A DNA stretch of 64,000 bases from a virus: positions 1 to 64,000 of IMG/VR virus record IMGVR_UViG_3300009008_000013, one strand, 5' to 3'. Position numbers and translations under genes: made by a program. Positions 7,934-47,127 of the stretch are shown here, in pieces (within the stretch, counting starts at the first letter, position 1; every line of letters starts with the position of its first letter). Under the pieces are notes generated by a model, which did no database searches, was not told the origin of the DNA, and saw only the letters and a list, made by a program, of their open reading frames with translations.

Positions 7934-8167
7934 ATGGCTGGAAATATCGTTGACACAGCGTTAGGCTGGGTAAGAAAATTGACTGAAGTAGGCGTTGCTC
8001 TAGTTTCACTAGCAGTAGTCCTACAAATCATTTTCGGCCCTGGTGTAGCGTTTTTGCCAGGCGATGTAGTAGGTAACATTATCGGACTTGTAAATGCACT
8101 AGGTAGCAACGGACTTGTTGGCTTAGTAGCGGTTGCAGTTCTTTATTGGCTATTTACGAAGAAGTAA
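7934..8167 (+). CDS. Small two-span membrane protein
   Basis: 77 residues with two hydrophobic segments (about 20-40, VGVALVSLAVVLQIIF, and about 60-75, GLVGLVAVAVLYWLF) joined by a Gly-rich loop and ending in FTKK. The N-terminus is amphipathic. It has its own promoter, a structured leader, a consensus AAGGAGG and a terminator-like hairpin after it, so it is a well-expressed single gene. Size and topology would suit a holin or membrane-remodelling protein, but no sequence signature proves this. Confidence 0.7.
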   Translation: MAGNIVDTALGWVRKLTEVGVALVSLAVVLQIIFGPGVAFLPGDVVGNIIGLVNALGSNGLVGLVAVAVLYWLFTKK

Positions 8168-8192
8168 TATCGCTTACTCTGATAAAGTGGTT

Positions 8193-8232
8193 CGGCTAGG
8201 CAGAGCTAGCCGTTCTACTTTTCATGTTTTTT
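8193..8232 (+). terminator. Hairpin terminator, imperfect T tract
   Basis: Perfect 7-bp stem CGGCTAG/CTAGCCG (8193-8199 with 8206-8212), loop GCAGAG, followed by TTCTACTTTTC and later a T6 run at 8227-8232. Ends the single-gene unit of 7934-8167. Confidence 0.65.
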
Positions 8233-8404
8233 AATCGGACATATAACGGACAAAGATTTAGATAAAAAATTAGACAGAGAATTAGCTAATACAATCTGGC
8301 TAGTTGTTAAGGGTTATGATATGCCCAGCGATTGGACAGATAAAGATGTACAAGAAATTATTGTTCGTTATTGGTCCAGAGCCATCGCAAAAGCAGAAGG
8401 TTAA
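8224..8404 (+). pseudogene. Small gene with a probable one-base frame disruption
   Basis: A frame ending at 8404, directly before the RNase H gene, encodes a natural-looking acidic/helical peptide (DKDLDKKLDRELANTIW … GYDMPSDWTDKDVQEIIVRYWSRAIAKAEG) but lacks a start codon. ATG 8224 is in another frame and stops early. Removing one T from the T6 run (8227-8232) would join ATG 8224 to it and give about 59 residues. Homopolymer error, polymerase slippage or a real mutation are possible. A short start at ATG 8323 would give 26 residues. Confidence 0.4.
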
Positions 8405-9373
8405 ATGAAATATCTATTAATAGACACCGCTAATATGTTTTTTAGAGCAAGGCACGTAGTTGCCAAAAGTGTTGATACTGACACTAAACTAGGTCTTGCT
8501 ATCCATGTAACTCTTGGATCCGTGGCCAAAGTATGGCGTGAGTTTAATGCTGACCATGTTATATTTTGTTTGGAAGGCAGAAGTTGGCGCAAGTCCTTTT
8601 ATGAGCCATACAAAAAGAATAGAGTAGTAGCACGACAAGCACTTACTGAAAAAGAACAGGAAGAAGATGAATTGTTTTGGGAAGTGTTTGAAGATTTTAC
8701 TGCATTTCTTAGAAGCAAAACCAATTGTACTGTAATTCAAAATCCAACACTTGAAGCGGATGATCTTATTGCTGGATTTATACAAGGACATCCAGATGAC
8801 GAACATTTTATCATTAGCAGTGACAGTGATTTTTATCAACTGCTAGATACTAATGTTAAACAGTATAATGGCATTACGGATCAGTTAATAACCAACGAAG
8901 GCATTTTTGACAAGAAGGGCAATATGGTTATTGATAAGAAAACTAAAGAGCCCAAAGAGATTCCTAATCCAGAATGGTTATTGTTTGAAAAGTGTATGCG
9001 TGGTGATCCAAGCGATAACGTGTTTACTGCTTATCCACGTGTTCGTAAGACTGTGTTAAAAGAAGCATTTGAGGACAGGCACAATAAGGGTTATGTTTGG
9101 AACAATATGATGTTACAGCGATGGATAGACCATAACGAAATAGAACACCGCGTAAAAGATGATTATGAGCGTAATCGTATATTAATTGATCTTACAGCAC
9201 AACCTGAAGAAATTCGTAATGAAATAGTCGAAACCATCGGAGAAATTGTCCAAAAAGACAATGGCAACGTTGGACTACACTTTCTTAAATTTTGCGGTAA
9301 GCACAATTTACTTAAACTAGGCGAAGAAGCAAACAAATTTAGCGACTTATTAAACGCAAGGTATTCACAGTGA
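8405..9373 (+). CDS. rnh: RNase H / 5'-3' flap exonuclease, T4 Rnh type
   Basis: 322 residues, close to T4 RNase H (about 305). FEN1/PIN-type nuclease that removes RNA primers and flaps during lagging-strand synthesis. Metal-binding acids: D7 (LLIDTANMFFRARH), E117/D119/D120 (LEADDLIAGF), D140/D142 (SSDSDFYQLL), D201/D204 (RGDPSDNVF). EGRSWRKSFYEPYKKNR (about 57-73) matches the helical-arch basic region of this family. It starts directly after the upstream stop (TAAATG), and its stop overlaps the next gene's GTG. Confidence 0.92.
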   Translation: MKYLLIDTANMFFRARHVVAKSVDTDTKLGLAIHVTLGSVAKVWREFNADHVIFCLEGRSWRKSFYEPYKKNRVVARQALTEKEQEEDELFWEVFEDFTAFLRSKTNCTVIQNPTLEADDLIAGFIQGHPDDEHFIISSDSDFYQLLDTNVKQYNGITDQLITNEGIFDKKGNMVIDKKTKEPKEIPNPEWLLFEKCMRGDPSDNVFTAYPRVRKTVLKEAFEDRHNKGYVWNNMMLQRWIDHNEIEHRVKDDYERNRILIDLTAQPEEIRNEIVETIGEIVQKDNGNVGLHFLKFCGKHNLLKLGEEANKFSDLLNARYSQ

Positions 9374-9573
9374 CTACAGATATAAAAGAAAAAATAGAAG
9401 AATTTGAAAAGTGGTATTTTTATCAAAAAATGCCAAGAGAAGTTTCAGTAATGTATATGGACTATTATTGGGACTTATATTGTGATAATTTCCAAAACAA
9501 TGATGATGTTACAATACAAGATTTTGTATTATCAGTAGCAAACGATAACTTAAATGACGATCAAAAAAACTGA
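9370..9573 (+). CDS. Small acidic phage protein, unknown
   Basis: 67 residues from a GTG that overlaps the RNase H stop (GTGA). Aromatic-rich N-terminal half (EKWYFYQK, MYMDYYWDLY) and acidic C-terminus. No motif recognised. Coupled to RNase H by overlap and to the next gene by a 20-bp overlap. Confidence 0.55.
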   Translation: MTTDIKEKIEEFEKWYFYQKMPREVSVMYMDYYWDLYCDNFQNNDDVTIQDFVLSVANDNLNDDQKN

Positions 9574-9799
9574 AAAGCAAAAAGCAATCGAAGAACTCAT
9601 TAAACAGCAAAGAGAGTTCATGGAAAACGTTAACAAAAGTGGATACACTGAAGAAGAGTATTGGCTCAAGCAAGGCGAATATCGTGAACGTCAAGCGAAA
9701 CTTGCTAAGTTAATTCATACTGAAGCACACAAGAAATACTGGGACGAATACAGAATAAACCTCAAAGTAGATATTGGTGATATAAACAAAGACGATTAA
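9554..9799 (+). CDS. Small charged helical protein, unknown
   Basis: 81 residues, mostly charged and likely all-helical (AIEELIKQQREFMENVNK; GEYRERQAKLAKLI). Overlaps the preceding gene by 20 bp. No recognised domain. Confidence 0.55.
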   Translation: MTIKKTEKQKAIEELIKQQREFMENVNKSGYTEEEYWLKQGEYRERQAKLAKLIHTEAHKKYWDEYRINLKVDIGDINKDD

Positions 9800-9805
9800 T
9801 ATCAC

Positions 9806-9834
9806 TTGACTATATAAACTTTTTCAATTATAAT
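9806..9834 (+). promoter_or_regulatory. Sigma70-type promoter next to ATG
   Basis: TTGACT 9806-9811, 17 bp, TATAAT 9829-9834. The start codon at 9842 begins 8 nt after the -10 box, so the message should be leaderless or have a one-base leader. No Shine-Dalgarno is present. Confidence 0.8.
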
Positions 9835-9841
9835 ATTATAT

Positions 9842-10114
9842 ATGAGCACGTATCAAGAAAGGCAAGTAAGGGCGGCGCGGAAGAAGCGTCTAAAGGTATT
9901 TGGCCGGAAAAAGAAAATAAGATTAACTTCTACGGTTAATCCCTTTCCCAATTACGAAACTAATAGCCCTAATTATCCTTCATTAGACACACGAATCCCA
10001 TTGGGCCCGTGCCGTGATTCATTGAAATCAACAAATCATACAATCGCTCCTGCTTATAATAAAGGAGCATATCAAGTTATCAGCAAAGACTGTATCAAGG
10101 ACATAGGTAGATAA
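9842..10114 (+). CDS. Small basic protein, unknown, probably leaderless mRNA
   Basis: 90 residues. The first 30 residues are strongly basic (RQVRAARKKRLKVFGRKKKIR), suggesting nucleic-acid binding; the rest is Pro/Asn/Tyr-rich and probably disordered. No family recognised. First gene of a unit that continues through 10115 and 10584. Start at ATG 9842 sits immediately downstream of the -10 box. Confidence 0.6.
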   Translation: MSTYQERQVRAARKKRLKVFGRKKKIRLTSTVNPFPNYETNSPNYPSLDTRIPLGPCRDSLKSTNHTIAPAYNKGAYQVISKDCIKDIGR

Positions 10115-10603
10115 ATGACAGATGACACTGTAGCAAAACCACTAGTAAAAGACAGATTTTGGATACTATCACGAAATGGTGAAAGTGTCGGCTTATTAAA
10201 CAGAATAGGAGACTCTCACTATGTTGTTACGCAACACGGCAAAAAGATAGCATTCAATTCTAAAAAAACATTGTTAGATAAGTATCCACTTCGCTTTATT
10301 AAATATAAAGCAAGTGATAAACCAACAAAAGCATCTGAAGAAGTACACAACTATCCAATTAATTCTAAGAATGCATATAATGTTATATATGATCTTAAAA
10401 GAAAACTTCCGATGTTTAATAAAAGAGAGGATAGTAAATGTTGGTTTTGTGCCGGATATTATATTGTTAACTTTATAAAAATAGGATGGACATCGGCGTT
10501 TTGTCCTAAACTTATTACATTAGATAGATACGGATATAAAGGCCCGTTTAAAACGATTGAAAAGGCAAAGGAAGCATTAAGATATGCCAAATCCTCAACT
10601 TAA
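10115..10603 (+). CDS. Conserved T4-like phage protein, unknown
   Basis: 162 residues. Begins right after the previous stop. The N-terminal half has short beta strands (DRFWILSRNGESVGLLN, HYVVTQHGKKIAF). The C-terminal half carries KCWFCAGYYIVNFIKIGWTSAFCPKLITL with three Cys (CWFC and a later C), perhaps a small zinc site, and KGPFKTIEKAKEAL. Proteins with this YNVIYDLKRKLP…AGYYI…CPKL…GPFKT pattern occur, as I recall, in many marine T4-like phages. Function unknown. Confidence 0.65.
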   Translation: MTDDTVAKPLVKDRFWILSRNGESVGLLNRIGDSHYVVTQHGKKIAFNSKKTLLDKYPLRFIKYKASDKPTKASEEVHNYPINSKNAYNVIYDLKRKLPMFNKREDSKCWFCAGYYIVNFIKIGWTSAFCPKLITLDRYGYKGPFKTIEKAKEALRYAKSST

Positions 10604-10826
10604 TTTGCGCCCTGTAGAAAATCTACTTAACCAAATTGCCGGAATTAGACACACCGGACAAAATGAGTTAAGGATAGGCAAGCAACATTGCCAAGATCTT
10701 GAACATTGTTTGGCTGTACTTTTGACTCATATTGCAACTTGTCAAGAAGAAATCATTAGATTACAAAAAGAAAAACTTGAAGACAACGTTATTAAAGTAG
10801 AGTTTGACGCTGGAGAATTCGAGTAA
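10584..10826 (+). CDS. Small helical protein, unknown
   Basis: 80 residues overlapping the previous gene by 20 bp. Likely helices include VENLLNQIAGI and a heptad-like stretch QEEIIRLQKEKLE near the C-terminus. No recognised domain. Last gene of the 9842 unit; the next gene is preceded by a structured leader. Confidence 0.55.
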   Translation: MPNPQLNLRPVENLLNQIAGIRHTGQNELRIGKQHCQDLEHCLAVLLTHIATCQEEIIRLQKEKLEDNVIKVEFDAGEFE

Positions 10827-10830
10827 TAAA

Positions 10831-10905
10831 ATATTTAATCTGCGGATAAATAGTTATATGTACATATTATGCCTTGTACATATAATGGAGAAGCAGATTA
10901 AATAT
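10831..10905 (+). promoter_or_regulatory. Nested double-hairpin leader around the ribosome site
   Basis: Outer arm ATATTTAATCTGC (10831-10843) pairs perfectly with GCAGATTAAATAT (10893-10905), which includes the first two bases of the next start codon. Inside it, TTATATGTACA (10854-10864) pairs perfectly with TGTACATATAA (10875-10885) around a 10-nt loop. The Shine-Dalgarno GGAG (10887-10890) lies in the short bulge between the two stems. The left strand also holds GATAAATA (10845-10852), one base from T4 late TATAAATA. Transcripts from upstream would carry the full structure; transcripts from the late element would carry only the inner hairpin or none. Suggests a translation switch. Confidence 0.65.
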
Positions 10906-11197
10906 GAGCAGGCCAAAACCTAAAGTTCTTTTAGAACACATTAACAAGGACACATATAAGTCAGACCAGATTTTAGAAGTAGAAGGTATCTGGACAGTGT
11001 TCTATGACGGTCAGCCAATCAACCTTAAGACAAGTAATCTATTAGTCAATTACCCTGGGCCAAAATACAAAAGAATAGCCTTTGGTAATCCAGGTCACGC
11101 ACATAACTTGGCTAAAAAATTAAATTCCCAATTTAAGACAGATAAATTCTCAGTGTTTTTATTATCTAAAGGGAAAAAAGTAAAACCTAGTGAGTAA
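10904..11197 (+). CDS. Small conserved phage protein, unknown
   Basis: 97 residues, basic, beta-rich (IWTVFYDGQPINLKTSNLL) followed by GPKYKRIAFGNPGHAHNLAKKLNSQF. The N-terminal RPKPKVLLEHINKDTYKSDQILE resembles proteins of marine T4-like phages, as I recall. Expression is probably controlled by the nested hairpin whose arm covers the ATG. Its stop overlaps the GTG of the next gene. Confidence 0.65.
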   Translation: MSRPKPKVLLEHINKDTYKSDQILEVEGIWTVFYDGQPINLKTSNLLVNYPGPKYKRIAFGNPGHAHNLAKKLNSQFKTDKFSVFLLSKGKKVKPSE

Positions 11198-11606
11198 GCA
11201 ATTAACAAAATTAGACTACACAACAAAATTTTTTAGTCTGCTAGATATACCAGATAATCAAAAAAATAGAAAAAAATATCTTGATTTCTGGTGGTATAAT
11301 ATTAGAGAATCTAGCAATGGACTACGACTTACTAAGCCGGGATATCTAACAATAACAAAAGAGTTGGATATAAAGGAATACAAGTTCGATCTAGATATAG
11401 ATGATTACGAAGGGAAACTGCATCTGTATCTAGATTTGGACCACTATATCCCAAGCCCGTATTTCATACATTCTAATAAAATAGGGAAATTACATAAAGC
11501 AATGAAAATCTCGATTTTTGAAGAAAAACTGGCTACAATGTTTTATTTAAGCGGAAATTCCCTTAATAAAATTGTGGAATCTATGCGATTATCGCTTGAA
11601 TTCTAG
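11190..11606 (+). CDS. Phage protein of unknown function, GTG start
   Basis: 138 residues from a GTG overlapping the previous stop by 8 bp. Soluble, Lys-, Leu- and Asp-rich. The centre has repeated acidic beta strands (KEYKFDLDIDDYEGKLHLYLDLDHYIPSPYF), and the C-terminus is helical (LNKIVESMRLSLEF). LDFWWYNIRESSNGLRLTKPGYLTI may form a small winged-helix-like unit. No known family. Confidence 0.6.
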   Translation: MSKQLTKLDYTTKFFSLLDIPDNQKNRKKYLDFWWYNIRESSNGLRLTKPGYLTITKELDIKEYKFDLDIDDYEGKLHLYLDLDHYIPSPYFIHSNKIGKLHKAMKISIFEEKLATMFYLSGNSLNKIVESMRLSLEF

Positions 11607-11640
11607 TATTTTTTAGCATTTTTTTAAAAGTCCTTTAAAA

Positions 11641-11714
11641 TCAACAACTTACATCACCTTTTTTCATGACAATTTCGCCCAGATCCCGTATAATGTATAT
11701 ATACGCTAAAGAAA
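11641..11714 (+). promoter_or_regulatory. Promoter cassette A with upstream box
   Basis: Upstream box TCAACAACTTA (11641-11651), then 25 bp from box start to the -35 ATGACA (11666-11671), 17 bp, TATAAT (11689-11694), then GCTAAAGAAA (11705-11714) eleven bases after the -10. The same layout recurs before 17574 and 19235. Drives the gene series from 11726. Confidence 0.7.
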
Positions 11715-14985: not shown

Positions 14986-15013
14986 GATTGCCCGGGATTA
15001 ATCCCGGGCAATC
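14986..15013. repeat. Perfect 28-bp palindrome
   Basis: Each arm is GATTGCCCGGGATT or its complement, with no loop. It follows the stop of 14792-14971 and precedes the next promoter. The flanks lack a T tract on the plus strand (AAAAAG follows), so it is not a standard terminator; a protein-binding site or RNA 3'-end hairpin is possible. Confidence 0.7.
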
Positions 15014-35173: not shown

Positions 35174-36841
35174 TTAAAACCTCACATGCCTACCCATGGT
35201 AACTGCACCGGCGGCAGTATATACAGGAATGCCATATTTTTTAGTAAATCTTATAGCATCGGCAACATCATTTACCATTGGCTCACCTCTAATATTTAAA
35301 CTGGTATTTAATAACATTGGACAACCTGTATAGTATTCCCACATTTTAAGTAAATTTCTTACATTTGGATTATCATTTGGGCCTACTGTTTGCACTCTAC
35401 TTGTTCCGTCTGCATGTACAATAGCCGGGAACTCTTTTGGCTTCTTACATTTGGCTACAAACTGCATATAAGGAGATGCTAATTTCCTTTTATTGCGATG
35501 TAGTATTACGCCATGTTTGTTTGCATAATCTGCTCTAGTTGCTGTTTCAAACAATAAAGTATCTGGCATATCAAAATACTCATGTGCTCTTTCTTCTAAT
35601 ATCATTGGCGCAAATGGACGAAACTTTTGTCTGCGTTTTATTTCATTTACTTTATCTTTAATATCATCACCGCGTGGATCTGCTAATAAACTTCTATTGC
35701 CTAATGCTCTTGGACCAAACTCTGCTTTACCGTTAGCAACACCCACGATGTTTCCTTCTAACAACTCTTTTATAATCTCTGCTTCTGGATATTGGCCACT
35801 AATATCATAGCCGAGATATGGATGCTCCCAATTTAATTTTTTACCATATGTTAATGCGGCGGCACCTAAACTGCTACCAGCATCTCCTGGATTAGGCATA
35901 ATCCAAATATTATTCCAGTTATTTGCTACTTTTGTATTTGCAACGCAATTTAATGCAACGCCGCCCATATAAACTAAATTTGTAGATTTGCAATGTTTTT
36001 TAGCGTGAGTCATAATATGGCCTACCATAAACTCTAAAACTTGTTGCGAAGATGCCGCAATGTCATAATTATCTTGATCTTCCATTTCTGCCAAGTAATT
36101 GGCCGCGAGCCGTGCGCCGTACCGAAGTTCATTACTTCGCCAATTTGTACCAGCGTGTAAGTTCTCTTTTAGTTTAAAAACTATTTTATTTAAGTTATTT
36201 GTTTCCCAAAAGGTATCAATTAAGTCTCGCGAATATATTGGAAATCCATATGCGGCCATTCCCATTAAAATGTATTCTTCATCTAGTGGGCGTAGGCCTA
36301 CGCGATCAGTCATAGCACTATAAAACAAACCAATACTATTTGGATATTTTGCACCCCAAACTTTTTCGTATTTTGCATAACCATTGTGATTGTATTGTGC
36401 ATTCCATATTGTAATAGTATCCCATTCTCCTATCGCGTCAATAACTACTATAGTTGCATCATTAAATGGACTTGTTTGAAAGCCCGCGGCGGCATGGGAT
36501 AAATGGTGATTATGATAATTAAAATGTTTGGTAAAATTCCAACTTAATTCAGTTTGCTTAACAAGCATTTTTTTAATGGAAAGATTTTTTAAACTTAATG
36601 CATCTTTCCATTGTCCGGAATATGCTTGGCGAGTTTTTTTAATCCATGGATTTTCGTAATACGAAACAACTTCGGGAAATCCATGTTTAAGTGCGTCAAT
36701 TATTAATTCATAATTTAAGTTATTGTCGTGTTTTTGCTTACTATATCTTTCCGCGTGTCCAGCAAAAAGTATATTTCCAGAATCGTCTATTAAACTGGCG
36801 GCAGCGTCATGAAACCCGCAACTTATTCCTAATATTTTCAT
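35174..36841 (-). CDS. O-carbamoyltransferase, NodU/CmcH family
   Basis: 555 residues, the normal size. The N-terminal ASKHA-type domain opens KILGISCGFHDAAASLIDD; metal-binding HHxxH is NHHLSHAAAGF (H112, H113, H116); then VVIDAIGEWDT and YMGGVALNCVAN. The C-terminal YrdC-like domain shows AEFGPRALGNRSLLADPR, RQKFRPFAPMI and NTSLNIRGEPMV. The enzyme attaches carbamoyl from carbamoyl phosphate to a hydroxyl, usually on sugars. Known in many marine phages. Overlaps the SGNH gene by 35 bp. Confidence 0.93.
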   Translation of the reverse strand: MKILGISCGFHDAAASLIDDSGNILFAGHAERYSKQKHDNNLNYELIIDALKHGFPEVVSYYENPWIKKTRQAYSGQWKDALSLKNLSIKKMLVKQTELSWNFTKHFNYHNHHLSHAAAGFQTSPFNDATIVVIDAIGEWDTITIWNAQYNHNGYAKYEKVWGAKYPNSIGLFYSAMTDRVGLRPLDEEYILMGMAAYGFPIYSRDLIDTFWETNNLNKIVFKLKENLHAGTNWRSNELRYGARLAANYLAEMEDQDNYDIAASSQQVLEFMVGHIMTHAKKHCKSTNLVYMGGVALNCVANTKVANNWNNIWIMPNPGDAGSSLGAAALTYGKKLNWEHPYLGYDISGQYPEAEIIKELLEGNIVGVANGKAEFGPRALGNRSLLADPRGDDIKDKVNEIKRRQKFRPFAPMILEERAHEYFDMPDTLLFETATRADYANKHGVILHRNKRKLASPYMQFVAKCKKPKEFPAIVHADGTSRVQTVGPNDNPNVRNLLKMWEYYTGCPMLLNTSLNIRGEPMVNDVADAIRFTKKYGIPVYTAAGAVTMGRHVRF

Positions 36842-37454
36842 AGATAATCTCTGCTATTTCAGCATGTGCCAATTTTCCTGGATGGCCTTTAGGACCGTGA
36901 TCCATACCATACACCCAATTAACTATTGCTTGGTTTGGCCACCCTATAAAATACTTATCGTCAACTAGGTCTTTAAACTCAGAATTACATTGTGGTATTA
37001 CTTTTTCATTATCAAAAGCATTAAGCATCAAATAAGGTATACGTCTAGACTCGAAAAAATCCTGTAATTCTCTTATTTGTACAAAAAAATTATCTAATAG
37101 ATAATTTTTTTCATTCTCTCCTAACACAATATTCTTTGGTATAGTTTCGTTTGGCCCCAATCGAATATACGAAGTCCATTGTATTACAGCACATTCTATT
37201 TCAGTTACTGAATTCAATGATTTCCTTTTACCAGTATTAAAAACAGATAGTCTGGCCAAATCGTTAAAAAAGTTTTTGGTAGTTTCTACTATACGATTAT
37301 TTGCGGCACCGGAACGTGCAAAATTAACTACTTGAAGTCTAGTTATTTCACCCAACTTGGCTGGCCAACATTCAGAAAACGGATGTTCTAACTCATCCCC
37401 AAACGTAAAACTATCACCGTTTGTGAATATTATTTTTTCTTGACTAATATCCAT
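36807..37454 (-). CDS. SGNH/GDSL hydrolase
   Basis: 215 residues from ATG 37454 (a GTG at 37466 would add four). Block I is IIFTNGDSFTFGDEL with the GDS nucleophile; block III-like GAANNRI carries Asn; the C-terminal GPKGHPGKLAHAEIAEIIYENI gives the HP of block V. Such enzymes add or remove acyl groups on sugars. Flanked by an Smr gene (25-bp overlap) and the carbamoyltransferase. Target unknown, probably a glycan. Confidence 0.8.
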   Translation of the reverse strand: MDISQEKIIFTNGDSFTFGDELEHPFSECWPAKLGEITRLQVVNFARSGAANNRIVETTKNFFNDLARLSVFNTGKRKSLNSVTEIECAVIQWTSYIRLGPNETIPKNIVLGENEKNYLLDNFFVQIRELQDFFESRRIPYLMLNAFDNEKVIPQCNSEFKDLVDDKYFIGWPNQAIVNWVYGMDHGPKGHPGKLAHAEIAEIIYENIRNKLRVS

Positions 37455-37663
37455 AGGTAAAAGCACCCGCCGTCGTCGCTTTGTTCTATTTTTCTTACTA
37501 GTGGGCTACATTCGATCCACTGTGGGAATTCTTGGCAAATACTTCCTTTGCCTGTAATTATTTTTATTTTTTTAATTCTTTCTTCATGGCATTCTTTAAT
37601 AGTAGCAATAATGTCATCATATGCTTCTTGTATGGAATAGCCGTGGTAGTCGATTACTATCAT
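37430..37663 (-). CDS. Small Smr-domain protein
   Basis: 77 residues, almost exactly one Smr (small MutS-related) domain: IDYHGYSIQEAYDDIIATIKEC corresponds to the LDLHG…EA helix and IKIITGKGS to the HGKG loop (here TGKG). Smr domains are nicking or RNA nucleases, or binding modules. An isolated domain among sugar and radical SAM genes is odd. Its ATG overlaps the previous stop (ATGA). Confidence 0.75.
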   Translation of the reverse strand: MIVIDYHGYSIQEAYDDIIATIKECHEERIKKIKIITGKGSICQEFPQWIECSPLVRKIEQSDDGGCFYLWILVKKK

Positions 37664-38730
37664 ATATTAATTAATGAACCCTTTAATGTTATATATCCAT
37701 TTTTATAATGTTGGTGATTTTTAAGTTTGTTTAACATGTTTATGCAATCACTGTACAATGAATTGTTTGGCAAAAAAACTGCTTGCTCTAAAAATAAGTT
37801 GGTATTGTAATTGTTAACCCACCAAGAACCCCAATCTTCTATACTACTAATAGTGGCACCAACATTGTACTTTTGACATAGGTTTGCAAAATTTATAACA
37901 TCCCTATAATTATTTTTTTGTAATACGAATGATAAATGAAAATAACGATTGTTCTCTTTCAAAAAGTCTAGACTATCAATAACAGTACTCCAGTTACCTG
38001 GGTAACGCACTTTTCTATATACTTCTTCACTTCCTGCATCAATACTAACTGCAAAAGATGTTACTTGATCCATAACTTTTGAATTTAAAAGCTTTTTATA
38101 ATTTATGCGTGTGGCGTTTGACCGAATTGTAAATTTATGATTTTTTCTAGGAATATAATTATAGATTATATCACCATAAATTCCACTAGCAAATGGTTCT
38201 CCGTCGCCTCCCAATTCTATTAAAGACGCGTGTTCAAAGTTTGACACCAAATCTAAAAAATGCATTGCATAACTTTTTCTTAACTCAAATTCAGGACCCT
38301 TATTAATAAACCTAAATTCTGGCCGGCAACTTGGACATTGTAAATTGCAACTATCATCAATAGCAAATATAAATGAATACCTTTGAGGGAAATCACCGAA
38401 TCGTATAGGCCCGGTGCATTTTGCTGTATTACAAAACTTAAAACTGCTTCCTGCTGAAGTATGTTCTTGTAGTTTTTTAGCAATTGAATTGTTCCATATT
38501 TCTTCTATAGTGTTAAAATCTTTTATATTACCAATTAGATAAGGTAAATGACCATGGCATGAACAGATGAATACGTGGCCAAGTTTGTTAACAAGAATTG
38601 AACTGCTTGGCATTATACAATAAACATCTTCTTTAAAAGGATGTAATTGGTTATCTCCCAATTTATACTTGTGTCTAATAGAACTTATTGAAGGTGTGCT
38701 TCTTATATAACGTAAGTAATCAACTTTCAT
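37660..38730 (-). CDS. Radical SAM enzyme A with N-terminal SPASM-like cysteine cluster
   Basis: 356 residues. The N-terminal cluster region has C38 (VYCIMP), C56/C58 (ICSCHG), C100 and C105 (FCNTAKC), resembling a SPASM/twitch iron-sulfur module placed before the barrel. The radical SAM motif is CNLQCPSC (C128, C132, C135); GGEP is varied to GGDGEPF. Close paralogue of 43413-44549: both share SFKFC, AKKLQE, FTIRSNAT and SIDAG. Starts inside a 30-bp palindrome with a late promoter element 5 nt before the ATG and no Shine-Dalgarno. Substrate unknown: a peptide, protein or sugar. Confidence 0.88.
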   Translation of the reverse strand: MKVDYLRYIRSTPSISSIRHKYKLGDNQLHPFKEDVYCIMPSSSILVNKLGHVFICSCHGHLPYLIGNIKDFNTIEEIWNNSIAKKLQEHTSAGSSFKFCNTAKCTGPIRFGDFPQRYSFIFAIDDSCNLQCPSCRPEFRFINKGPEFELRKSYAMHFLDLVSNFEHASLIELGGDGEPFASGIYGDIIYNYIPRKNHKFTIRSNATRINYKKLLNSKVMDQVTSFAVSIDAGSEEVYRKVRYPGNWSTVIDSLDFLKENNRYFHLSFVLQKNNYRDVINFANLCQKYNVGATISSIEDWGSWWVNNYNTNLFLEQAVFLPNNSLYSDCINMLNKLKNHQHYKNGYITLKGSLINI

Positions 38731-38765
38731 TTAAATATTTATTAATAAATATTTAAATATTTATT
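38729..38765 (-). promoter_or_regulatory. 30-bp palindrome with late promoter elements
   Basis: A perfect palindrome covers 38729-38758, with half-site ATTTAAATATTTATT. It holds AATAAATA on the minus strand (38743-38736), ending 5 nt before the ATG at 38730, and another on the plus strand (38744-38751). A third AATAAATA on the minus strand is at 38765-38758. Likely late promoter(s) for radical SAM gene A, giving an almost leaderless mRNA. Confidence 0.6.
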
Positions 38766-38895
38766 TGTATATAAATGGATCTCTCTTTTTAAGTTCTTTT
38801 AAACGCTTTCTATATCGTATCTCACGCTTAATTGCGTTAATAGGACGCATAGCTTGATACTTTGCTTTTTTATAGTATTTTTTTAATGTGTTCAT
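38761..38895 (-). CDS. Small basic phage protein
   Basis: 44 residues, strongly basic (MNTLKKYYKKAKYQAMRP then REIRYRKRLKELKKRDPFIYK). The ATG lies in the end of the SGNH gene 38870-39697 (26-bp overlap). The C-terminal RYRxRLKxLKKRDPFIY pattern recurs in small proteins of marine T4-like phages, as I recall. Possibly nucleic-acid binding. Its stop overlaps a late promoter element. Confidence 0.55.
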   Translation of the reverse strand: MNTLKKYYKKAKYQAMRPINAIKREIRYRKRLKELKKRDPFIYK

Positions 38896-39697
38896 AAATT
38901 ATCTCTGCCGCGTCTTCGTGTGCTTTCTCTAAAGGATGCGAAGTTGCAAATTCATAATTATTTATAAGTGCCCAGTCATTGAATCCCAAATACTTACTTG
39001 TTGGCCATGCTCCGGGAAAATGAAACCATACATCTTTATCAATTAATGTTCTTAAATTAATAGTATATTGATTAGTATGATCTTCAAATAATTGCGAAGG
39101 CGTATGATGTCCTACGTATGTGAATAAGTATTTAATATTTTTACTATTCAAAAATTCTTGAAGTAATAATATTTCTTTTAAACTGGTATATACATCGTCT
39201 TCATCGCTTACAGTATAATACCATGCTTTTGCTAAGTCTACAATGCCTGCTTCTTTATATATATTATATTTTCTTTCTAAAGTGGCTTTAGTACTTTCGT
39301 AATTGGGAGCATCAGAACTAACCTTTTTAAACCATTCAGATTTTACTTCATTGGTTGCGGCATAAGGATCTAACGATAACCACTCTGAATCTACTTTATA
39401 CATTTGGTCATTCAATGTTCCATTTATTAATTTGAACTCGCGCCTTGCAATAAATGTATACATGACTTGTACAAAAACATCTTCAGGATCATACTTCTTT
39501 AAGAATTCAATAGTATAATATAACACTCGCCGTGCCATAAATGCATTGCCTCTTCCACTAGCTGCCGTGTTTATGTGCTTGGCTCCTAGTTTATTAGATA
39601 CTAAATTACTCCAAGCATATTTACTAGGTCCAATACTATCATTTGGTAATTCAGCACCATAAGTAAAACTATCTCCGGATGAGATGCATATTTTCAT
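38870..39697 (-). CDS. SGNH/GDSL hydrolase
   Basis: 275 residues. Block I is CISSGDSFTYGAEL; an Asn-Gly region follows in INTAASGRGNAFMARRV (block II/III-like); the C-terminal SHPLEKAHEDAAEIIYEHI supplies the His of block V. A second member of this family within 1.5 kb (see 36807-37454); the two differ in length and insertions, so they probably handle different acyl-sugar substrates. Starts directly downstream of the 39706 gene. Confidence 0.8.
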   Translation of the reverse strand: MKICISSGDSFTYGAELPNDSIGPSKYAWSNLVSNKLGAKHINTAASGRGNAFMARRVLYYTIEFLKKYDPEDVFVQVMYTFIARREFKLINGTLNDQMYKVDSEWLSLDPYAATNEVKSEWFKKVSSDAPNYESTKATLERKYNIYKEAGIVDLAKAWYYTVSDEDDVYTSLKEILLLQEFLNSKNIKYLFTYVGHHTPSQLFEDHTNQYTINLRTLIDKDVWFHFPGAWPTSKYLGFNDWALINNYEFATSHPLEKAHEDAAEIIYEHIKKIL

Positions 39698-39705
39698 ATT
39701 CTTAT

Positions 39706-40812
39706 TTAACGTATTTGATCTATTTGTAATTGTTTAAAGTTACTATCGTGCCAAAAATAATCGAATGTAGCACTTGCGTCAGATGTTTGTAACTTATAAA
39801 CATCTAAATAGTCATTCATAATATACCAAGTTAGATAAGGTATGTCAGTATTAAAAGACTTTTGTAAGTTAACTTGTCCTACCTGTGGATGCCCCAATGT
39901 TAATGTTGGATCATCAGGATCTAATCCGTTTTGCCTTAACCAATTTATAAATTCATTAATTCGTTCATTATGATGTGGGAAATCTGACTTCCTTGACCAA
40001 CTAATATCAAAATCACCTGCGGCTTTTGTTTGTGATCGGCATGCAATAGTAATTTCACCCAATGTCATTGTATTGCCACCACTGATATCTAATGCACCAC
40101 CTTCATCTATAAAAACTTCCCAATGCGTTTTACCAACTGCTTTATTAACACCTACATAAACACCGCCAAACACTTTGTCTAAGCTACCAATTCCAAACCC
40201 TTCGAAGTCTGATTCATCTACTAAATCAAAGCGTGGTGCATTTAACCAACACATTAATTGTGACTTCTGCATCCACTCAGGCGCCTGTACTAACTTACGA
40301 TTAGTTAATGCCCATGTTTCAAACTCGTGACATAACAAATTAAGTTGCCTTATATGATACTTTTCTTCAGGTGTGGCGTTTTTAAAATGCCGAGACATTG
40401 ACGTTGACGTATCACCTGTATCAATGCCTTGTAATTCTTCAAACCATCTATGTAACCAATTAAACTTTTCATGTTTAATGGATAGTCCTGGATGGCCAAA
40501 CCCTACTTCACCATAATTAATACAATTTTCTAATGTATATGGCGCTGTTTCTATATTATAGTTTAATGAACTACTGTTAATAAAGTCTATCGTATCGTTG
40601 ATTTCATCAAGAATCAATTGCCCTGATCGTTTTCCGTTTACAAAACCCAAAAAGCAATAGTTTTTTTCAAGTATTAAATTGTCGTTAAGTATTCCGTTTA
40701 ACGCTGTAAGCCATTTGCGACTTAACCCTGTATCATATACGTCAATATAGACATCCATAGTACTATGATATCTTGTTCTTAACGTCATTACAATTTCATC
40801 TAATTTTTTCAT
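39706..40812 (-). CDS. Unknown protein, distant paralogue of 33540-34466
   Basis: 368 residues, no recognised domain. Begins with a strand-helix unit (MDVYIDVYDTGLSRKWLTALNGIL), then LHRWFEELQG, a strongly aromatic middle, a possible beta-barrel region (DKVFGGVYVGVNKAVGKTHWEVFIDEGG), and the C-terminal INEFINWLRQNGLDPDDPTLTLGHPQVGQVNL. These pieces match in order the 33540 product. Overlaps the 2OG oxygenase gene by 17 bp. It could be a partner or acceptor protein of the neighbouring enzymes; this is inference only. Confidence 0.55.
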   Translation of the reverse strand: MKKLDEIVMTLRTRYHSTMDVYIDVYDTGLSRKWLTALNGILNDNLILEKNYCFLGFVNGKRSGQLILDEINDTIDFINSSSLNYNIETAPYTLENCINYGEVGFGHPGLSIKHEKFNWLHRWFEELQGIDTGDTSTSMSRHFKNATPEEKYHIRQLNLLCHEFETWALTNRKLVQAPEWMQKSQLMCWLNAPRFDLVDESDFEGFGIGSLDKVFGGVYVGVNKAVGKTHWEVFIDEGGALDISGGNTMTLGEITIACRSQTKAAGDFDISWSRKSDFPHHNERINEFINWLRQNGLDPDDPTLTLGHPQVGQVNLQKSFNTDIPYLTWYIMNDYLDVYKLQTSDASATFDYFWHDSNFKQLQIDQIR

Positions 40813-41572
40813 TGATTAGTTTCTCCTTTACTTCTTCAAATGTTTTACCATATAGGCATACTCTAAGCGTAAGTCTTTCATTTGGTGTTGCTTCTACACG
40901 ATGTTCTATACCACTATTAATTAACGCTACCTTGTAGGTATCTACTTTATAATAATTGTCACCTTCTCTAAACTCTGTTGCTCCACGTTTACTAGTTTCG
41001 CTATCTAAGTTAATAGCTATAACAATAGGTGTAAAAGTAATGTTATTAGACTTTAACAATCTATCCGGAACTGTTATAACATTATCCACATGCCAGTCGA
41101 TGCTAGTATTTTTTGCTGACCATACGTAATTTACATCATAATCTAAAATAAAGTCTTGCAAATTTAAATGTTCAATTAATTGTTTTCCTATTTCTTGCAT
41201 GTATTTTTTATTATCAGTAAACTCTTTAATACTGTGTTGGTCCTCAAGAACATTAAAACGAGAGTACAACGGATTATCTGCTTGCCCTACTAATATAACT
41301 CCTTCTGTTCCTTTTTTGTCAGTAACTAGTGGGCGAATTTTTTCCATATCTATAGAATCATAATAATCTTTGTTTTTTACTATTAGATCTAAGACTTTTT
41401 TCAGTGCTTTAGATTTATCTTTTTCCTCAACTGAATAATATGTTTCTCTATATTTTCTAAGTATAGAAAAAACTTCTCTTAACTTAGCAATATCAAACAT
41501 GTCATATTTGTCGTTAAAATCAATGTGTTGTGAACCAACCCATGGTTCAGATTTGTCTAATATCTTATCCAT
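40796..41572 (-). CDS. 2-oxoglutarate/Fe(II)-dependent oxygenase-like protein
   Basis: 258 residues. Double-stranded beta-helix signature in the C-terminal half: iron-binding HxD in IDWHVDN (H161, D163) and the distal His with following Arg in SGIEHRVEATPNERLTLRV (H224, R237). TFTPIVIAINLD and GATEFREGDNYY are typical strands. It should hydroxylate a peptide or small molecule. Strong AGGAGGA before the ATG. Lies between a HugZ-like flavoprotein and an unknown gene, in the radical SAM island. Confidence 0.75.
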   Translation of the reverse strand: MDKILDKSEPWVGSQHIDFNDKYDMFDIAKLREVFSILRKYRETYYSVEEKDKSKALKKVLDLIVKNKDYYDSIDMEKIRPLVTDKKGTEGVILVGQADNPLYSRFNVLEDQHSIKEFTDNKKYMQEIGKQLIEHLNLQDFILDYDVNYVWSAKNTSIDWHVDNVITVPDRLLKSNNITFTPIVIAINLDSETSKRGATEFREGDNYYKVDTYKVALINSGIEHRVEATPNERLTLRVCLYGKTFEEVKEKLINEKIR

Positions 41573-41573
41573 T

Positions 41574-42122
41574 TTATATTCCTCCTATTGTTGTAGTATC
41601 AAACTTTAGAAATTCTTGTTCATCAATACTGGTGCGTATCCAAGCTGCCTTAGCAAATCCTCCATTTAACCTAATAGACTCGACATTGAGTCTATACATA
41701 TTAAAGTCTAAAAAGTCAAAAAATCCTCTTGCTTTCTTATGCTTTTCTAAAAACTTTGATTTGTGTTCATTCTTGTCTACTAATTCTACTCTGCCTATAA
41801 AAGTGGCTCTGGGACTATTCATTCTCATACGTCCATGTAAACTACCGTCAATTGTGCCATCTAATAATAAAGATATCTTTTTGTATGTTTGAATATTTTT
41901 ACTATGGTCTGACAAATCTGATATAAAAATATAAGGAACTTTTCTAATAAAGCATGACTGAACCAAACTTACATATGGATGAGTTTGTAATGCATCATGA
42001 CCATTTCCTAATGAAGTGGCCATATACATAAAACCACTATCAGCAGTTATTAAATTTTCAACAATATGTATTGCGTCTACTGTAGTAAAATTTGTTTCTA
42101 AACTTTTATCGTCTTCCACCAT
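41574..42122 (-). CDS. HugZ-like pyridoxamine-phosphate-oxidase-fold protein
   Basis: 182 residues. Split-barrel flavin/haem fold suggested by GFMYMATSLGNGHDALQTHPYVSLVQSCF, PYIFISDLSDHSKNIQTYKKISLLLDG, SPRATFIGRVELVDKNE, and the HugZ-like end FFDFLDFNMYRLNVESIRLNGGFAKAAWI. Relatives degrade haem or bind flavin. Overlaps radical SAM gene B by 25 bp, so co-translated. It may supply redox chemistry to the island; substrate unknown. Confidence 0.72.
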   Translation of the reverse strand: MVEDDKSLETNFTTVDAIHIVENLITADSGFMYMATSLGNGHDALQTHPYVSLVQSCFIRKVPYIFISDLSDHSKNIQTYKKISLLLDGTIDGSLHGRMRMNSPRATFIGRVELVDKNEHKSKFLEKHKKARGFFDFLDFNMYRLNVESIRLNGGFAKAAWIRTSIDEQEFLKFDTTTIGGI

Positions 42123-43411
42123 TCTAAAATCTCGCCATTCAAAATATTATCTATAGTATAACTGGTTTTACGCAGATTGTCAATTTTTGCCATGCGTTGT
42201 TTGCCTTTCAAGATGCCTTGTTCGTACTCGTCGGACCACTCTTCTTGGAAAGTTGGTCTTTCTTTTAGATTTTTTAATACATCTATTAGCGGTTGTTGTT
42301 TCCATGTTGCCTCCTTACATTCTTCTAATAATTGATCTACTTTGTCGTTTAATAAGTTACGTGGTAAACACAATGGACTCATTATAATGTCCGGTGTAAA
42401 AGCAAAAGTAACTTTTGCTAATAACATCGTATCTAACTCCTTACTTAATTCAAACATATTTTTTACTTCATATAATCCAGGTAAGGTTAAAGTAAAGTCT
42501 AAACGCATTTGGTTTGGATGCTTTTGTGCCGCCATACCTTGTTTATAATAGTGTAAAAACTTACTCCAATCTAAACCATCGCGTATGTATTCTCCTATAG
42601 CACCTGTACCATCAATTGATGCACATATTTGCCAGTCGCGTATATTGTCTAGTATATTTCTAAACAAATGCGTTCCTTTATACTCTATACGAGATAAGTT
42701 TGTATTATATCTTGCGTATACTTTACTTCCGTGTCCTTGTTCTATAATTTGTTTCATATACTTCCAATGTTCTTCAAACATTAGAGGTTCGCCACCTACC
42801 CAGTATATCTCTTCTACTTTGCCATTTGCTACTGCATCAGCAAATTCTTTTTCTACTACTTGCGATTGAACCTCGCTTATTTGTTTTCTTACAGTTGGGT
42901 CCATCCAATTATTTTTTGGATTACTGTAATCAATCATGTTGTTGTTACGTTGTTCTGTTTCCCAACTACTACTTAACATATCGCCACACATACGACATTT
43001 AAAATTACATAAATTACTAAAGCGATAATCCCAACTTACTGGCTTCATTGTAGTGTAGCCTGTTTCGTCTGTACTTGCTATCACTTCGTCGTATTTGTGT
43101 TTAAATAAATTCCAAAAATAATCTCTATATACGTCAGTGTTTAGTAATTTTTTATTACATACTTGGCAAGCATCTATTTCTTCTCCCGCCATGTGTGCTC
43201 TACGTACACTTTTCATATATTCACTATTCCAATGTTCTTCTAATGATATTGGATTATATTCACCTGTGCCGGCTTCAGTGTCTATATATTGCTTAAAGCT
43301 TTGTGCAGGCTCGCGTGAAGCGCAACACAATCTACGTTCTGTTTGTGGACTTAGGTAAGTATGCACCCACGGTGCCATACACATTGTTTCTGGTTTTTGT
43401 ATTTTTTTCAT
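42098..43411 (-). CDS. Radical SAM enzyme B, N-terminal twitch cluster
   Basis: 437 residues. N-terminal cysteine module: C11 in MCMAPWVH, the C29-C30 pair in RRLCCASREP, and C82/C85 in ACQVC. Radical SAM motif CNFKCRMC (C135, C139, C142), then YWVGGEPLMFEEHW. The order (auxiliary cluster before the barrel) matches the twitch-domain radical SAM family. ASIDGTGAIGEYIRDGLDW is shared with the other members of this island (…EYIRxGxxW). Abuts gene C with one base between. Confidence 0.9.
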   Translation of the reverse strand: MKKIQKPETMCMAPWVHTYLSPQTERRLCCASREPAQSFKQYIDTEAGTGEYNPISLEEHWNSEYMKSVRRAHMAGEEIDACQVCNKKLLNTDVYRDYFWNLFKHKYDEVIASTDETGYTTMKPVSWDYRFSNLCNFKCRMCGDMLSSSWETEQRNNNMIDYSNPKNNWMDPTVRKQISEVQSQVVEKEFADAVANGKVEEIYWVGGEPLMFEEHWKYMKQIIEQGHGSKVYARYNTNLSRIEYKGTHLFRNILDNIRDWQICASIDGTGAIGEYIRDGLDWSKFLHYYKQGMAAQKHPNQMRLDFTLTLPGLYEVKNMFELSKELDTMLLAKVTFAFTPDIIMSPLCLPRNLLNDKVDQLLEECKEATWKQQPLIDVLKNLKERPTFQEEWSDEYEQGILKGKQRMAKIDNLRKTSYTIDNILNGEILEWWKTIKV

Positions 43412-43412
43412 T

Positions 43413-44549
43413 TTATTTTTTGGGTATTAATAATGAATCTTTACTAATGCTTATATTTCTGTTGAAAGTGATCGGAGGTACTTCCGGAGCGTGAAACCAC
43501 GGATGTGTTATGATATTATTATAGATTTTAACCCATTCATCATATAATTCGTGGTCAGGCATGAATACTTGTTGTCTTTTAAAATTTGTGTAGCGGTCTG
43601 CTTCCGTCAAGCCGTTATTCTGATCTACCACTGGCCATGTTATGCCCCACGCCGTGCCCCAATCGTGTACAGGGTTAAGAAATCCTTTAACTTCAAACTT
43701 TTCGCAAAGATTTATAAAATTTATAATATCTTTAAAATTATTTTTTTGCACAACAAAAGTCATATGAAATACATAATTATTATCTTTCAAAAATTGTAAA
43801 TTATCTAGAACAGTTTCCCATTTGCCAGGAGGTCTAACAATGTTATATACGTCCTTAGTGCCTGCATCAATGCTTATTGAAAATTCTTGTATATTATTTT
43901 TTAACATAGTAGATGTTTCAAACTTGGATTGATCTATTAATGTTGCATTTGATCTAATTGTAAAACGATGTTTTGGATTTGGTTTATAATTATATATAAT
44001 TTCACTATATATTTTACTAGCAAAAGGTTCACCGCCGGCGAATTCTATAAGTACTGATCCTTTATATTTGTCCAAAAGTTCTAAGAATTTTTTTACATAA
44101 CTTTTTTTCTTTTCAAACTGTTTTCCAGATTTATAATACATCAGTTCATTTCTGCAACTAGGGCACTGTAAATTGCAACTATCATCCGTTGTTATATTAA
44201 TTGTAAAATCATGAAATGGATCCTCCTCCTCAAAAGGACCATGACAATGTTTTAGATCACAAAATTTAAATGTTGATCCTGCTTTTGTGTTTTCTTGTAG
44301 TTTTTTAGCAACTGGGTTGTTCCATATATCATGCAATCTATAAAAATCAAAAATATGGCCAACAGGATAAGGTAAGAATCCTTCACAACTACATATAAAA
44401 ATATATCCATCTTTATCCATCGTCATGTTGGTTTCAGGAAGAATACATGTAAAATTTTTAGCAGATAAGTCGACTTTATTTCTATACTTATTTTTTAAGG
44501 AGAAATTACCGCCGGTTTTTCGAACAAGGGTTAAATATTTTGTATCCAT
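43413..44549 (-). CDS. Radical SAM enzyme C, paralogue of A
   Basis: 378 residues. N-terminal cysteines C35, C53/C55, C97, C102 in the same pattern as enzyme A; radical SAM motif CNLQCPSC (C125, C129, C132); IEFAGGEPFAS has a normal GGEP. Shares FTIRSNAT, SISIDAGTKDVY and FVVQKNNFKDIINF with A but has a longer C-terminal segment. Overlaps gene D by 19 bp. Two copies of this subtype imply two related substrates or a two-step modification. Confidence 0.9.
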   Translation of the reverse strand: MDTKYLTLVRKTGGNFSLKNKYRNKVDLSAKNFTCILPETNMTMDKDGYIFICSCEGFLPYPVGHIFDFYRLHDIWNNPVAKKLQENTKAGSTFKFCDLKHCHGPFEEEDPFHDFTINITTDDSCNLQCPSCRNELMYYKSGKQFEKKKSYVKKFLELLDKYKGSVLIEFAGGEPFASKIYSEIIYNYKPNPKHRFTIRSNATLIDQSKFETSTMLKNNIQEFSISIDAGTKDVYNIVRPPGKWETVLDNLQFLKDNNYVFHMTFVVQKNNFKDIINFINLCEKFEVKGFLNPVHDWGTAWGITWPVVDQNNGLTEADRYTNFKRQQVFMPDHELYDEWVKIYNNIITHPWFHAPEVPPITFNRNISISKDSLLIPKK

Positions 44550-45877
44550 TTTTTATAGTCATAATTTATGAATTCTGCTAACACAGAATCAACATCATTT
44601 AAAGTTTTGCTTCTTACACTATCTACTTTACAGATAATGGTATGTAACATGGTGTCTAGATATTCTTCACCATCTTTTTCCTTTCTAAGATCTTCACTAT
44701 ACATATAAGAAATTAAAGACTCTACTTCTTTTACGTTATCAAAGTTTTTATCTATTAACTCTTGCCAATTATATGCTCTTAACTTATTTGCAATAATATC
44801 TTTTACTTCAGGTGAATGCATTTGTATATTAAAATGTTTGGGATAATGCATTAAATTTAGATACCAAGAATCTAAGTCTTTAATTTCTTTAACCCAGTCT
44901 GCAACATCTGTTATGTTATGGAAATTAAACAAGTTAAATGTAGTGCATATTTCTGTTTCCATGTTACTGGTTTTGTTCTCAGAAATATACAGTATATTAC
45001 TGTTTACTTCATCCCATTTTGCACCATAACGTTGGTATTCAAATTTATCGCCAATATCATCTACACTAAAAGATATTCTACAATGTTTAAAATGTGGTAA
45101 AATATCATGAAATTCATCTTTTGGCAACTGAGTGCCATTTGTATTATAATGAATATTTATATTTTTTGCGTGTCCGGATTCAATTAATGTTTCTAATACT
45201 GTAAAGTGTTCTTTAATCATCCAGGGTTCACCGCCTGTAAACTCTAAATGCTTTACGTTAGGCAATATTTCCTTTAGGTCTTCCCAAAATTGCGGACTTT
45301 TGCGTGGCCATTCGCCTTGCTTTAGATAGTAATATGCTGATGATTTTTTTGCATCTTCTTTTTTAAGTCCATGGAACTTTATATCTAATTCTATTTCTTC
45401 TTGCGCCCATTTGCTACTACTCCATGATCCGCATATTCTACATTTTAAATTACAAATAGTTCCTAACTTTAAGTCTAAATATGCAATATCATTTTCTGTA
45501 ATATCTTTACTAAAAATATCACGCATTTCAGGCAAGTGATGTGTAAAGTAGTGTGCCCAATTTATACGTTTACTTTCCAATCCAGCGTCTTCCTCATCCC
45601 AACACTTTTTGCAAATCTCAGGCTTTTTGCCGTCTAAGAAGTCTTGTCGTAACTTTTGCATATCAGGACTATTAAACGCATTTGTAATATTGTCGCCATT
45701 GTTTAAATTATACGGCTCATTTGTTCCTTCTTTACGCACAGGCCCTTCTGTCATACAACAAGGTTTAAGCCATCCTTTAGCATCTGCTTCCATATGCATA
45801 AAGGGCAAGTAGCATAGTGTAGGTGTTTCCTTAAAAGAGTCTACTTTATGTATAACAGTTTTTAGTTTTTCATTCAT
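44531..45877 (-). CDS. Radical SAM enzyme D, N-terminal twitch cluster
   Basis: 448 residues. N-terminal C22 (LCYLPFMHMEADAKG), C40-C41 (KPCCMTEG), C89/C92 (ICKKC). Radical SAM motif CNLKCRIC (C142, C146, C149), GGEP in EFTGGEPWMIKEHF. IHYNTNGTQLP and RISFSVDDIGDKFEYQRYGAKW follow the common plan but lack the EYIRxG form of the others. Start ATG overlaps the stop of gene E (ATGA). Confidence 0.9.
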   Translation of the reverse strand: MNEKLKTVIHKVDSFKETPTLCYLPFMHMEADAKGWLKPCCMTEGPVRKEGTNEPYNLNNGDNITNAFNSPDMQKLRQDFLDGKKPEICKKCWDEEDAGLESKRINWAHYFTHHLPEMRDIFSKDITENDIAYLDLKLGTICNLKCRICGSWSSSKWAQEEIELDIKFHGLKKEDAKKSSAYYYLKQGEWPRKSPQFWEDLKEILPNVKHLEFTGGEPWMIKEHFTVLETLIESGHAKNINIHYNTNGTQLPKDEFHDILPHFKHCRISFSVDDIGDKFEYQRYGAKWDEVNSNILYISENKTSNMETEICTTFNLFNFHNITDVADWVKEIKDLDSWYLNLMHYPKHFNIQMHSPEVKDIIANKLRAYNWQELIDKNFDNVKEVESLISYMYSEDLRKEKDGEEYLDTMLHTIICKVDSVRSKTLNDVDSVLAEFINYDYKKWIQNI

Positions 45878-47127
45878 AGTTCACTCAACTCTGGAAATGT
45901 TTCTTTAAAGTTTTCATTTCTTACATCGTCTACTTGGTTGGTTAGTTTTAAAAAGTCTTGTAGCAATTGTTCGTTGGCAGGTTGATTAATAAAGTTAATA
46001 GCACTTTCATAACCGTTTGTTGCTCGTTGCAAGCCGTCCAACGGTCTAATATATTCAATATGCTCTTTGTATTTAGCGATTAGTTTTTCTTTAAGATTAT
46101 TTGGTAGATTGTCTATGCGATAGTGTGGTGGATTCATTAATATGTTTATGTTAAAGTCTTGTGCTTGTATTAAACCTCTATCCATCCAATCACGATGAAA
46201 GTCTGGCATATGGAAACTGTTCATTATGCTTAACGTGCAACTAATATAAAAATCCACGTTAGGACAAATTTCTAACATTTCAAATCTATTTTGTTCAGTC
46301 TCTTTCCAAATAGTTCCTTTACGTATATACTCGGCACGTTTGCCCATGCCATCCAAACTTGCGCCGACACTAACACTATCAAAATGTTTCCACATTTCAA
46401 AAATACTTTTTCCTTTAAACTTCATTTCGCTCATATTAGTGTTGTAAATAAGTTTTACATCAAAACGCTCTTGTCGTATAAGTTCTTCTAAAATTTTCCA
46501 ATGCTCAACCATTGTAAGTGGTTCACCACCCGCAAAATAAAATTGCTCAATGTATGGCATATGTCGCTTTGCTTCTTCATAAAAGTCTTTGTCATCACCA
46601 CATCGTATTACTTTGGGATGATTTGGCGTTTGTCCTAACTTAACGGCATCACTATACCAATTAGAACTAAACAGTGGTCCGCAAGTGCGACAACGGAAGT
46701 TACACATATTACTAAAGCGAACGTCCCAATACACAATTTCAAAATTTGGATCAACGTTATGTGATTTTGTTTTATTAATATGATGTCCAAAATGTTTATT
46801 TGCACTTACTCTACCACTCATGAATCCGTTTTTATCTTGTTCATAGCATTTACTACATTCTTTAAGGTGCAATTCTTTAAACATTCTATCACGTATATTT
46901 TGCATTTTCTCGCCGTGCCAAATCTCTTCCAAAGTATTATCTTTTAAATCACCAACTGGCATATTCATATCTGACATACAGCAAAGATGCACAGAGGAAT
47001 CAGGATAAGCATGTATATGAGTCCAGGGATAGATACAAAACGTAGGATTTTCTAAGAGATTGAATTGTTCTTGTGGTGATAGATCCTCAAGTTGAACTTT
47101 CAACGGCTTTTTTTCATTATAATCCAT
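45874..47127 (-). CDS. Radical SAM enzyme E, N-terminal twitch cluster
   Basis: 417 residues. N-terminal C31 (FCIYPWTHIHAYPDSS), C49-C50 (HLCCMSDM), C91/C94 (CSKCYEQD). Radical SAM motif CNFRCRTC (C142, C146, C149), FAGGEPLTMVEHW, VGASLDGMGKRAEYIRKGTIW. Very similar in layout and sequence to the next enzyme F, including YNTNMSEMKFK and PPHYRI vs GPDYYRL, so E and F are probably a tandem duplication. Overlaps F by 11 bp. Confidence 0.9.
   Translation of the reverse strand: MDYNEKKPLKVQLEDLSPQEQFNLLENPTFCIYPWTHIHAYPDSSVHLCCMSDMNMPVGDLKDNTLEEIWHGEKMQNIRDRMFKELHLKECSKCYEQDKNGFMSGRVSANKHFGHHINKTKSHNVDPNFEIVYWDVRFSNMCNFRCRTCGPLFSSNWYSDAVKLGQTPNHPKVIRCGDDKDFYEEAKRHMPYIEQFYFAGGEPLTMVEHWKILEELIRQERFDVKLIYNTNMSEMKFKGKSIFEMWKHFDSVSVGASLDGMGKRAEYIRKGTIWKETEQNRFEMLEICPNVDFYISCTLSIMNSFHMPDFHRDWMDRGLIQAQDFNINILMNPPHYRIDNLPNNLKEKLIAKYKEHIEYIRPLDGLQRATNGYESAINFINQPANEQLLQDFLKLTNQVDDVRNENFKETFPELSEL

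Follow-up and report, generated by a model that had tools for sequence, protein, structure and literature searches.

A predicted T4-style hairpin and late-promoter switch before a conserved, uncharacterised gene of jumbo phages

The question raised by this locus is whether the leader of a 97-aa gene, which lies directly behind other genes of the same orientation, keeps that gene closed to ribosomes in long RNA and opens it only in RNA started late in infection. Here, we provide computational and comparative evidence that the leader most probably acts as a T4-style, stage-specific translation switch that combines a hairpin with a late promoter. The term RNA switch denotes this combination of promoter choice and hairpin, not a ligand riboswitch. 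A ligand riboswitch or other known RNA family was considered and rejected, as the leader has no Rfam match and the stem sequence is not conserved between leader classes.

Architecture of the leader and its upstream region

The window, i.e., the whole 64,000-nt stretch of DNA that was analysed, is part of a 111,813-bp IMG/VR virus record, for which no near-identical named phage was found. The controlled gene (97 aa, 10904-11197) and all elements of its leader lie on the plus strand. The outer stem is formed by ATATTTAATCTGC (10831-10843) and GCAGATTAAATAT (10893-10905), pairs at 13 of 13 positions and was listed as inverted repeat I22 in the window repeat search. The inner stem, between TTATATGTACA (10854-10864) and TGTACATATAA (10875-10885), consists of 11 perfect pairs and a closing G-U. 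The Shine-Dalgarno sequence (SD) GGAG (10887-10890) sits in the internal loop, and much of the long, 13-nt spacer between SD and ATG is contained in the outer stem. The minimum-free-energy fold is exactly this nested two-stem structure (-28.9 kcal/mol, z = -5.27), and none of 200 dinucleotide shuffles folded equally well. A perfect 13-bp inverted repeat alone is not rare, as several perfect repeats of 14-15 bp occur in the AT-rich window; the distinctive feature is the nesting around SD and ATG, not the length of the outer repeat. Elsewhere in this AT-rich genome, a loopless palindrome with arms of 14 bp that match perfectly (GATTGCCCGGGATT/AATCCCGGGCAATC) is present at 14986-15013 of the window.

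An earlier, sequence-only reading had described perfect stems of 13 bp (outer) and 11 bp (inner) flanking the SD, with the outer arm reaching the start codon. Both stems are where it had placed them, the right outer arm pairs the A and T of the ATG at 10904, and folding recovered the nested structure. It had also placed a late promoter element in the left strand of the fold; the element exists, as GATAAATA at 10845-10852, but it occupies the gap between the outer and the inner left arm and is inside neither. Only one other copy of GATAAATA occurs in the window.

Closure of the gene in long RNA would depend on transcription entering from upstream. An 80-aa co-directional gene (10584-10826, plus strand), the presumed source of read-through, is separated from the outer stem by 4 nt. 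Genes upstream of the leader share its direction and are closely spaced, and the only terminator-like site detected in 8100-11700 lies at 8193-8212, with none from 8,213 to the leader; read-through is therefore plausible. A co-directional open reading frame (ORF) ends at most 260 nt upstream in 150 of 151 relatives (median 61 nt). A sigma-70-like promoter match on the plus strand (TTGACT-17-TATAAT, 11/12, 9806-9834) is a candidate source of early read-through RNA, with such matches being no more frequent here than expected by chance. No intrinsic terminator, i.e., a G+C-rich stem followed by a T-run, was called at the leader itself. In Pseudomonas phage PA5oct (L085:3901-4000), a strong terminator-like stem (AAAAACCCTGTATAGTCTATACAGGGTTTTTATAT) is located just upstream of the promoter element and the hairpin at the ribosome-binding site is weak; this stem is perhaps another way to exclude read-through RNA from the gene. 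Replacement of the hairpin by a terminator is not general among weak-hairpin relatives (10% of weak versus 6% of strong), and only PA5oct is a clear case.

Probable late promoter element and predicted accessibility of the start region

We collected leaders of this gene from 248 loci, which gave 155 distinct leaders. An element of the form [GC][AGC]TAAATA is found 14-63 nt before the ATG in 151 of these (111 with GATAAATA, 23 with GGTAAATA, 13 with CATAAATA and four with GCTAAATA), and lies within 60 nt of the start in just 13 of 1,211 neighbouring genes from the same loci. PA5oct has no GATAAATA in its first 44 kb, a region of small early-type genes, and 31 copies in the remaining 205 kb that were examined, where copies stand 27-54 nt ahead of baseplate, sheath, tail-fibre and other virion genes, if not ahead of all of them. 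In the window's own record, TATAAATA, AATAAATA or GGTAAATA precedes several genes of the structural block. The same record encodes a gp55-like sigma factor (84079-84357, E 4e-7), as do nine relatives, the weakest match being that of PA5oct (E 0.003). Conservation at the gene, placement before virion genes in PA5oct, the gp55-like sigma factor and the published motif of jumbo phage CBB together indicate that the conserved element is very probably a late promoter.

In the region around the gp55-like gene (83635-84435 of the record, beyond the window), AATAAATA precedes the ATG of this gene by 23 nt, and the opening cost of its start region falls from 8.0 to 0.4 kcal/mol upon truncation. The sigma gene is possibly under similar control.

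T4 late promoters have their element at -13 to -6, and late start sites were assumed from this geometry throughout. For the window it predicts a late RNA on the plus strand that starts near 10858. In the proposed mechanism, RNA entering from the upstream co-directional genes would carry both arms of the outer stem, provided that transcripts cross the leader early in infection. The stem would then cover the spacer and start codon, initiation by ribosomes would be blocked, and the gene would be repressed in the cell. At the late stage, RNA polymerase carrying the gp55-type sigma factor would start from GATAAATA at or close to this predicted site and produce an RNA without the outer left arm, with SD and ATG open for synthesis of the 97-aa protein. 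The outer left arm would thus exist only in read-through RNA, as the sequence-only reading had proposed. The inner left arm is partly absent from the predicted late RNA, which retains part of the inner stem.

Accessibility was computed as the cost of opening positions -15 to +3 relative to the start. In read-through RNA the family median is 9.8 kcal/mol, versus 4.7 kcal/mol in the 1,211 neighbouring genes (p 4e-39, a nominal value because related sequences are not independent), and SD and/or start codon are computed to be sequestered by a helix. When the RNA is cut at the predicted late start, the family cost falls to 2.55 kcal/mol and the start region is predicted to be open. The drop amounts to 7.1 kcal/mol, whereas cuts at matched offsets in other genes gave a drop of 1.6 kcal/mol (nominal p 1e-54). 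Of the positions that pair with the start region, 76% lie 5' of the predicted late start; sequence and T4 geometry thus place the promoter element such that the 5' strand of the helix would be removed from late RNA. For the window leader, the cost changes from 13.2 to 2.6 kcal/mol. The positive controls T4 gene e (16.2 to 0.8-3.8 kcal/mol) and T4 gene 49 (15.8 to 3.0 kcal/mol) behave alike, which lends computational support to the earlier proposal of a gene that is silent early and open late. Other late genes respond less, with a median change from 6.2 to 2.3 in PA5oct.

Conservation of the hairpin and competing explanations

In most relatives, the start region is part of a hairpin whose other strand lies upstream of, or at, the predicted late start site. 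The commonest leader class has the order GATAAATA-TATGCGTA-loop with AAGGA-TACGCAT-ATG, in which the left arm starts at the end of the element, the right arm extends into the ATG and part of the loop sequence (GTTAAT) is shared. Pairing was counted in 96 leaders that had been selected by element position only. In these, 88.6% of cells are paired, versus at most 56% when the arms are slid, two-sided changes occur at seven of ten pairs, and the covariation score was reached by none of 500 shuffles; the register is shifted in some rows, and single G-U counts are not to be over-read. In the commonest class, about 24 double compensatory changes were counted on a coding-sequence tree, 13 of them at one pair and five at another. 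Compensatory changes, by which the sequence-only reading had proposed to check the fold, are thus abundant in the commonest leader type. The window's own clade comprises few distinct sequences. The nearest relatives of the window retain the nested fold with altered arms: inspection shows a single T-A to A-T change in L004, the arms of L006 differ for the most part yet remain paired, and the fold of L007 is weaker. Structure is weak (<5 kcal/mol) in 20 of 151 relatives, and the PA5oct hairpin is also weak at 5.8 kcal/mol.

Leader classes diverge strongly in stem sequence and loop length, and the GGTAAATA class has a different stem, TAGTTGTA/TACAATTATG. Across this variation, the right arm stays tied to the ATG while the spacing between the arms ranges from about 10 to 50 nt. 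These properties bear on whether the hairpin could instead be an operator bound by a protein, for instance the 97-aa product, so that translation is under autogenous control rather than set by promoter choice. The restriction of stem and element to a single gene family and the GTTAAT loop segment common to the commonest class would fit an operator. The strong variation between classes suits pairing over a specific protein site, however, the predicted late RNA would be without the structure to be bound, and neither fold nor family searches linked the 97-aa protein to a known RNA-binding protein. We therefore regard such an operator as highly improbable.

The inverted repeat could also function at the DNA level, as a palindrome recognised by a regulator of the late promoter, in which case the RNA fold would be a by-product. 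The repeat adjoins or overlaps the promoter element in most relatives, compensatory changes would preserve the symmetry of the DNA as well, and I-TevI provides a precedent of an operator that overlaps a late promoter (PMC2988022). Yet a fixed DNA site would be expected to retain its sequence and spacing, whereas here the right arm follows the ATG through all arm spacings and it is specifically the accessibility of the start region that changes, as in T4 genes e and 49; this alternative appears highly improbable. A chance origin, of the stems from AT-rich sequence and of GATAAATA as a random match, might be argued from the 13-bp inverted repeats elsewhere in the window and from GATAAATA and TATAAATA not being enriched across the window as a whole. 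This has next to no probability given a z of -5.3 and the conservation in relatives, and is already contradicted by the covariation.

The leader classes also differ in the SD. It is present in 92% of the GATAAATA class, whereas among GGTAAATA-class loci (L063, L044, L046 and others) an SD precedes the 97-aa gene in just two of 15, and in none of eight with a close element. The element is only 14-20 nt before the ATG at L025, L026, L040, L041, L043, L047, L052, L058, L075 and L076, a distance that implies a predicted late mRNA with a leader of 1-7 nt, leaderless or nearly so. It is tempting, though rather doubtful at this stage, to propose that one jumbo-phage gene has been kept obligatorily late-only in translation across highly diverse lineages, with the stem repeatedly rebuilt and with some lineages having shifted to a leaderless or SD-less late mRNA. 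If so, the GGTAAATA and close-element classes would represent a change in translation mode that is set by promoter choice. Irrespective of this, the leaders are a natural test set for the coevolution of RNA structure and promoter position.

Known switches and the 97-aa gene

Inhibitory structures at translation starts have been described for T4 genes e, soc, 49 and I-TevI (PMC3014915). In gene e, the RNA made from late promoters is devoid of the 5' strand, and lysozyme synthesis is reduced about 100-fold by the structure (PMC3014915). The parallel to the window is close, as in gene e the long early RNA hides SD and/or AUG, the late promoter lies within the region coding for the 5' strand and the late RNA is without that strand (PMC3014915); the same accessibility change was computed for both. 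The window differs in the gene and phage group, in an outer left arm that lies wholly upstream of the promoter element and in its second, inner stem; moreover, the switch of T4 gene e is experimentally proven, whereas that of the window is a computational prediction. T4 genes 49 and soc likewise have the start region sequestered in an RNA helix (PMC3014915), but these genes are unrelated to the 97-aa gene, and the window has its SD in an internal loop with the spacer and the AU of the AUG paired. A further likeness is the NATAAATA element in the left strand of the gene 49 leader (AATAAATA).

Comparable hairpins are known from I-TevI, I-TevII, I-TevIII, segB and Aeh1 mobE, late homing endonuclease genes that are carried on early or middle polycistronic transcripts and kept silent by RNA structure until a shorter RNA is made from a late promoter (PMC2988022). 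The 97-aa protein, in contrast, matches no endonuclease family. Among jumbo phages, an ATAAATA motif resembling T4 TATAAATA was reported before structural genes of CBB and GAP32, together with a gp55-like sigma factor; the parts of that account available to us do not mention coupling to a hairpin or discuss the 97-aa gene family (PMC5259590). Within the incomplete literature covered, we found no published report of a hairpin and late-promoter switch for this family. The already known T4 device thus appears, with good computational support, in a new, conserved and uncharacterised gene. This extends a classical T4 trick, best described for a few T-even genes, to jumbo phages with strong comparative evidence. 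Persistent exclusion of the 97-aa protein from the early stage, as predicted here, would suggest that making it early is either harmful or useless.

The predicted switch would offer a concrete handle on a widespread phage protein that is conserved in jumbo T4-like phages. At least 591 relatives were confirmed among 599 candidate stretches in an IMG/VR scan, with more in two further scans, and 15 named records encode the protein, including Pseudomonas phage PA5oct, Agrobacterium phage Atu_ph07, Salicola phage SCTP-2 and Sinorhizobium phage Phosso. In the window and the named relatives, the gene stands behind others of the same direction, and genes for an exonuclease or RNase H, a glutaredoxin or a polymerase are located nearby. 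The protein has no sequence matches in Pfam, PHROG or PDB; its structural model is fair (pLDDT 81), has no fold match in PDB and resembles only uncharacterised viral proteins. The next gene (138 aa, GTG start, 11190-11606, plus strand) overlaps the 97-aa gene by eight bases and may be co-regulated with it; relatives of its product were found only in the window clade. On the minus strand, the window additionally carries a cluster at 35174-52249 that encodes radical-SAM proteins (three or four of the scanned ORFs) and a Nol-like carbamoyltransferase, an unusual phage cargo.
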